Positions 7,272-10,354 of a stretch of 20,419 nucleotides of DNA are shown piece by piece. Both the position numbers and the translations under genes were made by a program. Location: IMG/VR virus record IMGVR_UViG_3300018080_000688, positions 1 to 20,419 of that record; one strand, given 5' to 3'. The notes under the pieces were generated by a model. That model was not told the origin of the DNA. It saw only the letters and a program-made list of their open reading frames with translations, and did no database searches. The DNA is from a virus. The first letter of the stretch is position 1, and every line of letters begins with the position of its first letter.

Positions 7272-9416
7272 TTACTCCACAATTAACTCAATGTCTTCTA
7301 TACTCTCTATTCCGATCACATTCTCTCGAATTCCATTGAACTTCAGTCCTGAGAATTTCACATCATCAATGTAGAGAACATCATAACCAGACGTGGCCGT
7401 TGTGTTCAGAAATCTTAAATTCCCAAGTGTCTGATTGCTGGAGTTGTCCCCGCCTCCGTCATCACCATTCACAAAACAGCCTCCAGAATTGTCTGTTGTT
7501 ATTGTAGCAACAGTGATGAGATTGTTTGAACTGTCATAAGCCTTGATTGAATTGTTCAGAGTCGTAGCAAACTTCGTGAATGTTCTGACGTAAATCAGAT
7601 CGTTTGCTGTATCACTGACATTCTTAAACTTCAGCTTGGCTGTTGCTGAAATGCTGTCAACTGCCTGAACACTGTCGAAGTTCAGAAGATATCCGTTCAG
7701 ATCCTTGAGATCAACAACTCTGTCATAGCTGACATCATCATTAATTTTCTCAAAGATGTTTTTCTTCATGTCATAAACACTGAATGAAGAAGCATAGGCG
7801 GGATTCACTGTCAACTTGATCTTCGGTTTCAACAACATGAAAACAGGATTCATATATTTGAAGTACATTGTGAGGATCTTATATTTGTCAAGATATTTGA
7901 TAATTTCAGTTGTGTTCTCTGAAGTGTTGACAAACTGAAAACTATCATCAAAAAATGAGTAATAGACGAACCCCAGATCTCTTCTGTATTTTCCAGAATT
8001 AAGATCACTATGAAGAACTGAGTCAATTGCCAGAATGCCATCATCATAGAGATTCCTGATCACTTCTGTCATCATGTTGAAAATCTCTGTTTCGCTTCCA
8101 CTGTAGACCGTTCCTGATTTTGTCAGATAGGTATCTCTCTGTGTGTTGATCATTTCTGTCATGTCAAGATATTCTCTGGCTCCGCTCCATGCCTTGATTC
8201 CCTTGTATTCAGAAAACTTTCCACCGAGAAGATAATTGTAATCAGTTTCGGTCACTGCTCTACCCTGCGTGACGCGGAAAAGAGGAGCACTGATCTTCAT
8301 GCTGTCTAATGTCTGTTTTCCAATGCCGTTGTCAAAGAATGCCAGATTGTTTTCGCCATCAACAAGTGTTGCTGAAAAATATGCTTCTGCTCCTGTTGGA
8401 GAGATCGTTCGCGGATCACTTCCTGAAGTTGAGTTCACAGAAACGATCTGAGTCTCGTTTGAATTAGCATCAACTTCGAGGATCTGAAAATCATAGACAT
8501 CTTCATAATCAAAAGTATTATTGCCCTGTTCGTCATTGATATCTTCACCTTCTGTTGTAGCAAAGAAGATTCTCACGTCTTCAGTGTCAAGAAGTGTTCT
8601 GCTGAGATGATCAATATCAAAGACAATGGAAAGCCCAGTTGTTTTGTCATAGGTGAGATTGTAGGCTCTGAGATTGTCCTGATCGAAAAGACCGAGTCTG
8701 AGATTGTCATATTCATACCATGTTCCAGATGTCTCCTTAACAAAGACTCTGATGCTGTCCTGAATGACCTTGTCGCCGTAATAATTACCGCTTCCGTCTT
8801 CAAGTTCAACTGTCATAGTTCCGGGATCAGCTGTGTTGACTGTATGAGTTACAACGTTCCATTTGGCCTGATAGACTGGCATAGTAGCTTCGAGCTGATA
8901 CCCACCTGTTGATTTGAGAGTCTTATTCATGTAGTAATAAAACATGTTCTGATCAACATAAGCTGTTGAGCTAATATCTGTGTAATAGTCCTGTTGCCAC
9001 TTATCCCTGAGTGTGGGAACGAAAACATAGGAGTCGTTGTACTTTATAGTGTTCAGGAAGATTTTGAACGTAGACGAAGCTGAAGGCGTGTATGATGCTG
9101 ATTCTAAGTCATAGATGACCTTGAGATAGCGTTTTGCTGGTTTGTTGAGCTGTGGAATGTAGTTAAAGTTCTGAATCAGTGAATAGATAGTGTCTTCGAG
9201 TGTTGCCGTATCTAGGAAAATGCTTTCAATTGATCTGTTGAGCTGGAAGGCAAGATTCCTGATGACAAACTTGGCGACTCTGATGAAAGCGGGAAGAGCA
9301 CCAGCCTTGAAATTGTATGATTTGAATTCATCACTGTTGGCGAAATATTCTAAAAGATTTTGTTCCACGAGATCCAAATCAGCTTCGTTTATCTTAACTT
9401 TATTGATATCGACCAA
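7272..9416 (-). CDS. 6: Baseplate wedge protein gp6-like
   Basis: This 714-residue protein (T4 gp6 has about 660) is probably the baseplate wedge subunit that forms the inner ring joining the wedges. The N-terminal region (AFIRVAKFVIRNLAFQLNRSIESIFLDTATLEDTIYSLIQNFNYIPQLNKPAKRYLKV) follows the gp6/J-family pattern of a helical segment, 'N.s..E.fLdTA...s.i..la...gY.P' and then a strand. The rest is beta-rich with a long C-terminal part. The start is an unusual TTG at 9416, chosen because AGAGGAG lies 6 nt upstream and no in-frame ATG occurs near the N-terminus. It follows gp25 after a 554-bp gap, and the gp25-gp6 order is that of T4-like baseplate clusters. Confidence 0.75.
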   Translation of the reverse strand: MVDINKVKINEADLDLVEQNLLEYFANSDEFKSYNFKAGALPAFIRVAKFVIRNLAFQLNRSIESIFLDTATLEDTIYSLIQNFNYIPQLNKPAKRYLKVIYDLESASYTPSASSTFKIFLNTIKYNDSYVFVPTLRDKWQQDYYTDISSTAYVDQNMFYYYMNKTLKSTGGYQLEATMPVYQAKWNVVTHTVNTADPGTMTVELEDGSGNYYGDKVIQDSIRVFVKETSGTWYEYDNLRLGLFDQDNLRAYNLTYDKTTGLSIVFDIDHLSRTLLDTEDVRIFFATTEGEDINDEQGNNTFDYEDVYDFQILEVDANSNETQIVSVNSTSGSDPRTISPTGAEAYFSATLVDGENNLAFFDNGIGKQTLDSMKISAPLFRVTQGRAVTETDYNYLLGGKFSEYKGIKAWSGAREYLDMTEMINTQRDTYLTKSGTVYSGSETEIFNMMTEVIRNLYDDGILAIDSVLHSDLNSGKYRRDLGFVYYSFFDDSFQFVNTSENTTEIIKYLDKYKILTMYFKYMNPVFMLLKPKIKLTVNPAYASSFSVYDMKKNIFEKINDDVSYDRVVDLKDLNGYLLNFDSVQAVDSISATAKLKFKNVSDTANDLIYVRTFTKFATTLNNSIKAYDSSNNLITVATITTDNSGGCFVNGDDGGGDNSSNQTLGNLRFLNTTATSGYDVLYIDDVKFSGLKFNGIRENVIGIESIEDIELIVE

Positions 9417-9448
9417 GACTTTCTCCTCTTATTAAATTTACTCATTTT

Positions 9449-9456
9449 TATTTATT
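9449..9456 (-). promoter_or_regulatory. Late-promoter-like motif AATAAATA before gp6
   Basis: The minus strand reads AATAAATA 33 nt before the TTG start at 9416. It lies back-to-back with a plus-strand sigma70-like promoter that begins at 9460. Confidence 0.5.
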
Positions 9457-9459
9457 TTC

Positions 9460-9487
9460 TTGACTTATTAAATGAATAATGTAAAAT
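9460..9487 (+). promoter_or_regulatory. Sigma70-like promoter driving the plus-strand mini-genes
   Basis: TTGACT (9460-9465) and TAAAAT (9482-9487) are separated by 16 bases in an AT-rich intergenic stretch. Transcription would run rightward into the two small ORFs at 9527 and 9621, opposite to the surrounding structural genes. Confidence 0.5.
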
Positions 9488-9526
9488 TAAAGTGTTTTCG
9501 TTCTTTTTATTTAACTGAAGGTCATT

Positions 9527-9607
9527 ATGAAAACAGATGACAGAAAGAGTCATCGGAATAGCAGATTCATCGAGTCTGCATTCCCGAGAACTTTTTTGCT
9601 AATTTAA
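9527..9607 (+). CDS. 26-codon ORF, possible leader peptide
   Basis: An ATG at 9527 behind GAAGG opens a frame reading MKTDDRKSHRNSRFIESAFPRTFLLI, ending at TAA 9605-9607. A long hairpin followed by six T residues lies inside it (9555-9597), and the ribosome site of the next ORF begins just past its stop. The arrangement resembles a leader peptide with attenuator, but the ORF is too short to be sure it is translated. Confidence 0.3.
   Translation: MKTDDRKSHRNSRFIESAFPRTFLLI
9555..9597 (+). terminator. Hairpin plus T6 tract inside the leader (possible attenuator)
   Basis: GGAAT-a-GCAGA (9555-9565) pairs with TCTGC-ATTCC (9575-9584) around a 9-nt loop, giving 10 bp with one bulged A. A run of six T's follows at 9592-9597. 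The 7-nt gap between stem and T tract is longer than in a classical intrinsic terminator, so it may be a weak terminator, an attenuator or a chance structure. Confidence 0.35.
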
Positions 9608-9620
9608 CGGAGGTAACAAA

Positions 9621-9791
9621 ATGAAAGAGTATTTGGTTGTTGATTATTCAAACGTAACTGATCCAAAATCAGAAAAGCCATCATATATTAGATTTATCGG
9701 CTTTTCTGATTTGCTTAACTATTTAGACACAAACAGAGACAAGCAAATAGCAGTATTTGAAATTGGGAACTGTTTATTAGATTGGTCATAA
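9621..9791 (+). CDS. 56-residue protein of unknown function on the opposite strand
   Basis: The ATG at 9621 follows a strong ribosome site (CGGAGGT, 9608-9614) and opens a 56-residue frame that begins MKEYLVVDYSNVTDPKSEKP and ends CLLDWS. It is acidic, with short beta-like stretches (YLVVDYS, IAVFEIGNCLL), and no family is recognised. It is the only plus-strand gene with good translation signals inside the structural region and has its own upstream promoter. The coding sequence contains a perfect 14-bp inverted repeat (arms 9666-9679 and 9699-9712). From size, strand and promoter type I infer an early or regulatory phage gene. Confidence 0.6.
   Translation: MKEYLVVDYSNVTDPKSEKPSYIRFIGFSDLLNYLDTNRDKQIAVFEIGNCLLDWS
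9666..9712 (+). repeat. Perfect 14-bp inverted repeat within the 56-residue ORF
   Basis: AAATCAGAAAAGCC at 9666-9679 is exactly mirrored by GGCTTTTCTGATTT at 9699-9712, with a 19-nt loop. A perfect repeat of this length inside coding sequence is unlikely by chance. It could be a binding site for a dimeric regulator or an mRNA hairpin that controls the gene. Confidence 0.7.
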
Positions 9792-9799
9792 AATAAATA
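9792..9799 (+). promoter_or_regulatory. Plus-strand late-promoter-like motif AATAAATA
   Basis: AATAAATA follows the stop codon of the 56-residue ORF directly, the same placement as the minus-strand copies. No ORF follows it; only the hairpin-rich stretch 9805-9970 does. Confidence 0.4.
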
Positions 9800-9804
9800 A
9801 ACTC

Positions 9805-9970
9805 AACAGTACTTCGGTCACATACCATCAGAACTGTTCCGAGGTCGATCTTTCATAAGAGACAGAGCCCGCATAGCCTCTCAACGATGCTTAATATTGT
9901 GATCTGGATTTACAGATATCGCTGAGGTGACGATCTCAGAATGGGTCATTATGGGGTGATAAGCCCCGAT
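9805..9970 (+). ncRNA. Candidate structured small RNA, ~165 nt
   Basis: This stretch between the 56-residue ORF and the end of gp25 has no ORF of useful length on either strand. On the plus strand it can form several local hairpins in series: AACAGT/ACTGTT (9805-9810 with 9833-9838, with GGT/ACC nested inside), TCTT/AAGA (9849-9860), ATCTG/CAGAT (9902-9917), CTGAG/CTCAG (9922-9939) and GGGG/CCCC (9953-9967). The last stands 3 nt from the gp25 stop and could end a transcript, although only a short T-rich stretch follows. A promoter-like motif precedes it at 9792. No known RNA family or tRNA was recognised, and the strand is inferred from that motif. Confidence 0.35.
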
Positions 9971-10354
9971 TTATCTCTTAATTTCAAGAACTATCTCAAG
10001 ATCCCTGTTATCTTCACTGATATCTGATTCTCTCACAGGAATCACAACAACATATTCATTGTTGCTGTAATCTATTCTGACTTCAATACTGGCAACGTCC
10101 ACGTCATAATCATCAAGATAATTTTCAACAACAGATTTCACCTGATCTTCAATTATGAGTGAATTGAACATGTTCACGCTGTCCTTGAGATATTCCTGAA
10201 TGTATGTTCCGCGTTCTGGGTCATCTGGATTCTCAAGCGGTCGGGTTTCTATCAGGTCTTCAAGTGCCAGAACAAAGGCATCATAACCAGTTCTGACAGC
10301 AACACCATTTTTCAGACTTGCTTTTCTTCGGAGATTCGGGTCAATATCTTTCAT
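9971..10354 (-). CDS. 25: Baseplate wedge protein gp25-like
   Basis: This 127-residue protein (T4 gp25 has 132) is the small wedge protein at the sheath-baseplate junction, of the gp25/GPW family. It opens with DIDPNLRRKASLKNGVAVRTGYDAFVLALEDLIETRPLENPDDPERGTYIQEYL, aligning with the family's 'DID......d..v..g..AV..sl.nil.t..g.RPf.P.fG..l...lF'. It ends in alternating strands (VDVASIEVRIDYSNNEYVVVIPVRE ... DLEIVLEIKR) as expected. The family's RPf.P.fG segment is loosened here to RPLENPDDPERG. It starts at ATG 10354 after AGAGGA, 36 bases after the helicase gene. Confidence 0.85.
   Translation of the reverse strand: MKDIDPNLRRKASLKNGVAVRTGYDAFVLALEDLIETRPLENPDDPERGTYIQEYLKDSVNMFNSLIIEDQVKSVVENYLDDYDVDVASIEVRIDYSNNEYVVVIPVRESDISEDNRDLEIVLEIKR

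Follow-up and report, generated by a model that had tools for sequence, protein, structure and literature searches.

A variant of abiF RNA without an AbiF gene in a T4-like phage contig, and its possible role as an RNA antitoxin mimic

The stretch of DNA analysed here (the window) is a viral contig of 20,419 bases, IMGVR_UViG_3300018080_000688. It carries T4-type genes for a portal, a Gp23 capsid, a UvsX-like recombinase, a DnaB-like helicase and baseplate wedge proteins, and the source phage belongs to a deep T4-like lineage, with a capsid protein only about 25% identical to those of named T4-like phages. Nearly all of the window's genes lie on the minus strand. Between two of them, gp6 and gp25, there is an interval of 554 bp whose features are oriented opposite to the flanking genes: on the plus strand it holds a sigma70-like promoter, an ORF of 26 amino acids, an ORF of 56 amino acids, and then 179 bp (9792-9970, the gap) in which no credible ORF was found. 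The genes and transcription signals are as follows.

7272-9416, minus strand: gp6, a baseplate gene
9460-9487, plus strand: sigma70-like promoter TTGACT-16-TAAAAT, ahead of the 26-aa ORF
9527-9607, plus strand: mini-ORF of 26 aa
9621-9791, plus strand: mini-ORF of 56 aa, directly upstream of the gap
9792-9799, plus strand: late-type promoter octamer AATAAATA, the sole plus-strand copy in the window
9802-9846, plus strand: 5' leader with a weak hairpin (fold z=-1.13, not significant alone)
9952-9968, plus strand: intrinsic-terminator-like hairpin GGGG/CCCC, followed by ATTTATCTCTT
9971-10354, minus strand: gp25, a baseplate gene, whose 3' end adjoins the gap

The window contains 10 copies of the motif [A/T]ATAAATA, where 2.1 would be expected. 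Nine are on the minus strand, and eight of these precede a gene start by 25-38 nt. The plus-strand copy, AATAAATA, has no same-strand gene downstream. A preliminary description of the window had claimed about 165 nt free of ORFs behind a late-type octamer with no gene to serve, and the motif count and the lack of a credible ORF bear this out. Its further claim that the other non-coding gaps are under about 150 bp failed, as 9417-9620, just upstream, measures 204 bp. The promoter- and terminator-like signals are shown to be present, and the minus-strand version of the 9952-9968 hairpin was not flagged as terminator-like. That the leader marks the start of a transcript is likely, but this is inferred, without transcript data.

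The gap gave no match in a similarity search against named phages. No Pfam, PHROGs or PADLOC entry matched the 56-aa product above cut-off, and it had no close relatives among the viral contigs searched. Close relatives of gp25, the mini-gene and the capsid protein were likewise not found in viral contigs; because close kin are lacking and the capsid is so diverged, synteny could not be used. ARAGORN found no tRNA or tmRNA.

Both mini-ORFs contain structure of their own. Within the 26-aa ORF, downstream of the sigma70-like promoter, is a strong plus-strand hairpin with six Ts at its end (9552-9598; z=-4.45 for 9546-9600), and it resembles an attenuator or a second small RNA preceding the mini-gene. 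The 56-aa ORF contains, at 9666-9712, an almost perfect inverted repeat of some 14 bp (z=-5.52 for 9655-9722). Such a repeat is unusual in coding DNA; the 56-aa ORF may not be a real gene.

The folding energy of the gap did not exceed chance, either for 194 nt (z=-0.90) or for a core of 91 nt (z=-0.75), so its hairpins alone are no evidence and the case for an RNA rests on comparison. At the gathering threshold Rfam had nothing for the window. Relaxed and limited to the gap, the search gave one meaningful match, to abiF RNA (RF03085), at 9875-9894 on the plus strand. The match is local, covering positions 8-27 of the 37-nt model, and it scores 23.8 bits, below the gathering cut-off of 37 bits; with that family alone searched over the window, E=6.1e-4. 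Nineteen of its 20 nucleotides are identical to the Rfam consensus, and it fits the YAA form of the conserved core, AGCCUCUCAACGAUGCUYAA, exactly. The core match is thus shown, and the cut-off was missed because the fold differs from that of a classical abiF RNA.

The exact 20-mer pattern AGCCTCTCAACGATGCTYAA was found in 115 IMG/VR stretches, where our estimate of chance occurrences is below 1. Named phages of Mycobacterium, Arthrobacter and Synechococcus carry it as well, and Aeromonas phages carry it with mismatches. This pattern was chosen over a 15-mer scan, which included chance matches.

In the window an outer stem, P1, closes a junction of three hairpins, which are the abiF core, P2 and P3. 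The parts of the RNA, in order, are these.

9858-9949, plus strand: the whole variant abiF-like RNA domain, as matched by model R2
9867-9871, plus strand: P1 5' strand, GCCCG (pairing probability 0.8-0.9; most relatives retain CCC/GGG)
9875-9891, plus strand: abiF core hairpin AGC-CUCUCAACGAU-GCU, within the RF03085 match
9892-9898, plus strand: unpaired 3' stretch UAAUAUU, aligned to L279 2067-2103, the equivalent of the CAAAUGU bulge of PbAbiF RNA
9902-9917, plus strand: P2 hairpin AUCUG-gauuua-CAGAU (compensatory changes at 3 of 5 pairs)
9922-9939, plus strand: P3 hairpin CUGAGGU-GACG-AUCUCAG (compensatory changes at 7 of 7 pairs)
9942-9946, plus strand: P1 3' strand, UGGGU, pairing with 9867-9871

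The fold is supported by covariation. In a seed alignment of 10 sequences the covariation score was 0.667, against 0.188 when shuffled (0 of 500 shuffles reached it), with changes on both sides at all seven P3 pairs and the GACG loop invariant throughout. The structure of this seed had been drawn from the window, so the test was repeated without it: RNAalifold, run on the other nine seeds, gave the same architecture. The covariance model R2, whose structure was derived in this way, matches the window once, at 9858-9949, with 55.1 bits and E=7.5e-15. A wider search brought the variant copies to 22, 17 of them distinct and all from viral contigs. Their alignment gave a covariation of 0.603, against 0.168 shuffled (0/500) and at most 0.134 when slid, although it leans towards the model to which it was fitted. 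The scores separate the variant from the classical form: bacterial and named-phage abiF loci reach at most 38.6 on R1 while accepted variants score 40-101, and classical-form loci reach at most about 37 on R2. The lowest-scoring variants (L248, L263, L261 and L096) are borderline and were retained because P1, P2 or P3 could be read by eye. The conserved fold is therefore shown, and in the window's RNA all of the paired regions are intact.

Altogether the RNA in the gap is very likely a structured RNA and a structural variant of abiF RNA. It shares with the classical RNAs, including RCd22 and the PbAbiF RNA of PDB 8vz6, the AGC-CUCUCAACGAU-GCU core, the YAA that follows and an outer stem, and the core is identical except for a C to U change in the YAA. 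The classical RNA consists of one 37-nt hairpin, with the outer stem directly next to the core, and an Abi_2 gene usually follows it. The window lacks that arrangement: P2 and P3 are inserted before the outer stem closes, there is no Abi_2 gene, and the Rfam score falls short of the cut-off. Most abiF RNAs of phages and bacteria are simple hairpins, e.g. CCCCCTA-core-ACCTGGGGG.

The CTGAG/CTCAG and GGGG/CCCC stems of the preliminary description hold, as parts of P3 and of the terminator-like hairpin respectively. Comparison, and not folding energy, supports its small folded RNA downstream of a late-type promoter, with transcription still inferred. The covariation check gave a strong result, and the Rfam check, empty at the gathering threshold, exposed the abiF core once it was made permissive. 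The hint of a wholly unassigned class needs correction, since the core is that of abiF RNA and only the architecture is a variant under the Rfam cut-off; what is added is a fold that current Rfam annotation misses.

With the pattern used, the three-hairpin form was not found in bacteria. When 84,980 species genomes were scanned for the exact core with GACG at the P3 distance, no three-hairpin bacterial copy emerged, and the candidates raised were rejected as four classical loci with a chance GACG and one chance match. Divergent bacterial copies could have been missed, as the scan demanded an exact core. Among the viral loci, the L130 group and the pair L153/L176 carry near-identical variant RNAs next to different genes, which fits a stand-alone cargo and speaks against a fixed two-gene module. 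A toxin common to the variant loci was looked for and rejected: unrelated contigs share no gene family next to the variant.

The RNA is also an orphan. Abi_2 (PF07751) has no match in the 20-kb window even at E<=10. An AbiF gene elsewhere in the phage is not excluded, as the window is a fragment of a presumably larger genome. The orphan state nevertheless holds, and is shown, for nearly all of the viral relatives: an Abi_2 or AbiF-family gene is present in just 2 of 111 viral records with an abiF-type RNA and missing from 109, and it is absent from all eight named complete phage genomes searched (S-SZBM1, Mimi, Thibault, T7-Ah, S-SRM01, Lolly9, Estes and S-CREM1). Of the viral records 55 are at least 30 kb long. 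Not all are independent, as several are close relatives and one IMG record equals GenBank JN201525 (Thibault) in length. In 61 Bacteroidaceae genomes, by contrast, Abi_2 lies directly downstream of 15 of 20 abiF RNAs (Fisher p=1e-13). Kinship within both groups means that this p overstates the evidence, but the contrast remains large. The three-hairpin form was not seen beside an AbiF gene, the AbiF loci examined showing classical forms only, so the partner of the variant could be a different protein, e.g. another HEPN protein.

In bacteria, too, abiF RNAs can occur with no Abi_2 gene next to them, as do five of the 20 in Bacteroidaceae (L281, L282, L289, L294 and one L285 copy). A Dietzia genome has an abiF RNA and no Abi_2 gene. 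It is possible that these RNAs are prophage-borne or have diverged partners.

AbiF is a widespread HEPN defence ribonuclease and a proposed ancestor of Cas13 (PMC12165695, PMC12737573). It serves in bacterial abortive infection, with abiF RNA as its antitoxin. RCd22, the abiF-motif RNA of C. difficile, attaches directly to AbiF and neutralises it both in cis and in trans, and this was abolished by disrupting the stem and not by compensatory changes (PMC12373285). The protein beside the L279 RNA matches the AbiF structure PDB 8vz6 with E=8e-149. For the RNA of that structure, a review states that the bulge nucleotides C32 and U38 are reported to inhibit AbiF (PMC12737573). In our inferred numbering, counted on L279, they correspond most simply to the two end bases of the CAAAUGU after the core. 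At the presumed C32 the window has a U, as do L185 and L142, and U38 is kept if the register is right.

Our leading interpretation, to which we would give a probability of roughly 0.6, is that this is an orphan mimic of an RNA antitoxin that neutralises the AbiF of the host. With no AbiF gene alongside, the RNA most likely works in trans, against a host AbiF. A late RNA of about 165 nt would be made from the gap, starting probably just after AATAAATA and ending at the 9952-9968 hairpin, and its folded domain would bind AbiF made by the host. Supplied by the phage during infection, this antitoxin RNA would hold AbiF bound and inactive, and the phage would complete its cycle. Transcription, AbiF binding and protection of the phage are all inferred, and the host has not been identified. 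Several points count against the mimic: binding to AbiF has not been demonstrated experimentally for any orphan abiF RNA of a phage, C32 is changed to U, the three-hairpin form is not seen at AbiF loci, and the window is only a fragment of the genome.

Three phage systems bear on the mimic reading. The T4-like cyanophage S-CREM1 (PMC9964418) resembles our case in being a T4-like lytic phage with an abiF-type RNA and no Abi_2. Its abiF sRNA differs in having the simple classical fold (51.6 bits) and in lying within a cluster of tRNAs, and its authors proposed no anti-AbiF role. The pseudo-ToxI RNA of PhiTE has been shown experimentally to defeat ToxIN through mimicry (PMC3475682). It imitates a type III antitoxin RNA in a phage that lacks the toxin, as the window's RNA would, and by analogy the same action is proposed. 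PhiTE differs in using ToxI pseudoknot repeats against ToxN, an unrelated fold and toxin. A region of phage sk1 is reported to protect against AbiF (cited in PMC12737573). A search of sk1 for abiF RNA found none, so sk1 is no precedent by way of the abiF motif.

Of the other explanations, one is that the RNA is the antitoxin half of a toxin-antitoxin pair of the phage itself, with a toxin that is not Abi_2, lies outside the fragment, or is the 56-aa or 26-aa ORF. In its favour, the plus-strand mini-ORFs are directly upstream behind a sigma70-like promoter and the phage genome is incomplete. We consider it unlikely: the 56-aa product has neither a database match nor a close viral relative, no neighbouring family recurs in unrelated contigs, and bacterial toxins are normally within about 160 nt of their abiF RNA.

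Another is that the abiF-type fold is a general module for some other host factor, in RNA processing or translation, which AbiF systems borrowed and which phages use for regulation unrelated to defence. The frequent location of phage abiF RNAs in same-strand tRNA arrays (49/125) and the conservation of the core despite missing partners are in its favour. The tRNA co-location may merely reflect a shared cargo region, and to our knowledge the abiF core has no partner other than AbiF (PMC12373285; PDB 8vz6), so this explanation too seems unlikely.

The last explanation denies an expressed small RNA and takes the gap for a mere element of transcription termination, or of the mRNA end, serving gp25 and gp6 on the minus strand, or else for a decayed relic. 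The position at the 3' end of gp25 and the GC-rich 9952-9968 hairpin suggest it, but it is very unlikely: retained G-U pairs, the orientation of the Rfam match and the linkage of relatives to tRNAs on their own strand all indicate the plus strand, the hairpin's minus-strand copy was not flagged as terminator-like, and every paired region is intact.

Returning to the AbiF mimic, a bolder version of it is that phages evolved an architectural class of their own among AbiF-inhibiting RNAs, a three-hairpin junction whose core is invariant and one of whose stems bears a GACG loop, toxin-free and shared by unrelated phages. We regard the odds for this version as evenly balanced; if true, it would mean an RNA inhibitor of a proposed Cas13 ancestor in unrelated phages. 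In the open-access literature searched (subscription papers and preprints excluded), no phage counter-measure built on AbiF's RNA was described, and a phage abiF sRNA outside AbiF loci appeared just in the S-CREM1 paper and a review citing it, without an anti-AbiF proposal. Together with orphan classical abiF RNAs in mycobacteriophages, cyanophages and T7-like Aeromonas phages, the variant makes an AbiF counter-measure testable in laboratory phages.

Orphan abiF RNAs are often found in phage tRNA arrays. Within 500 bp of a tRNA were 49 of 125, and all 49 were on the same strand as it; examples are the viral loci L138, L187 and L202 and the named-phage loci L242, L274 and L275. Beside arrays of 23 tRNAs, L175 (556-720) and L184 (4403-4567) each have a pair of abiF-type motifs with a spacing of about 110 nt, reminiscent of RCd22 with its double motif. 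Among mycobacteriophages (Baka, Optimus, Wanda etc.), several have the abiF core under a hypothetical-protein annotation while close relatives are unannotated there, and such small ORFs may possibly be misannotated RNA.
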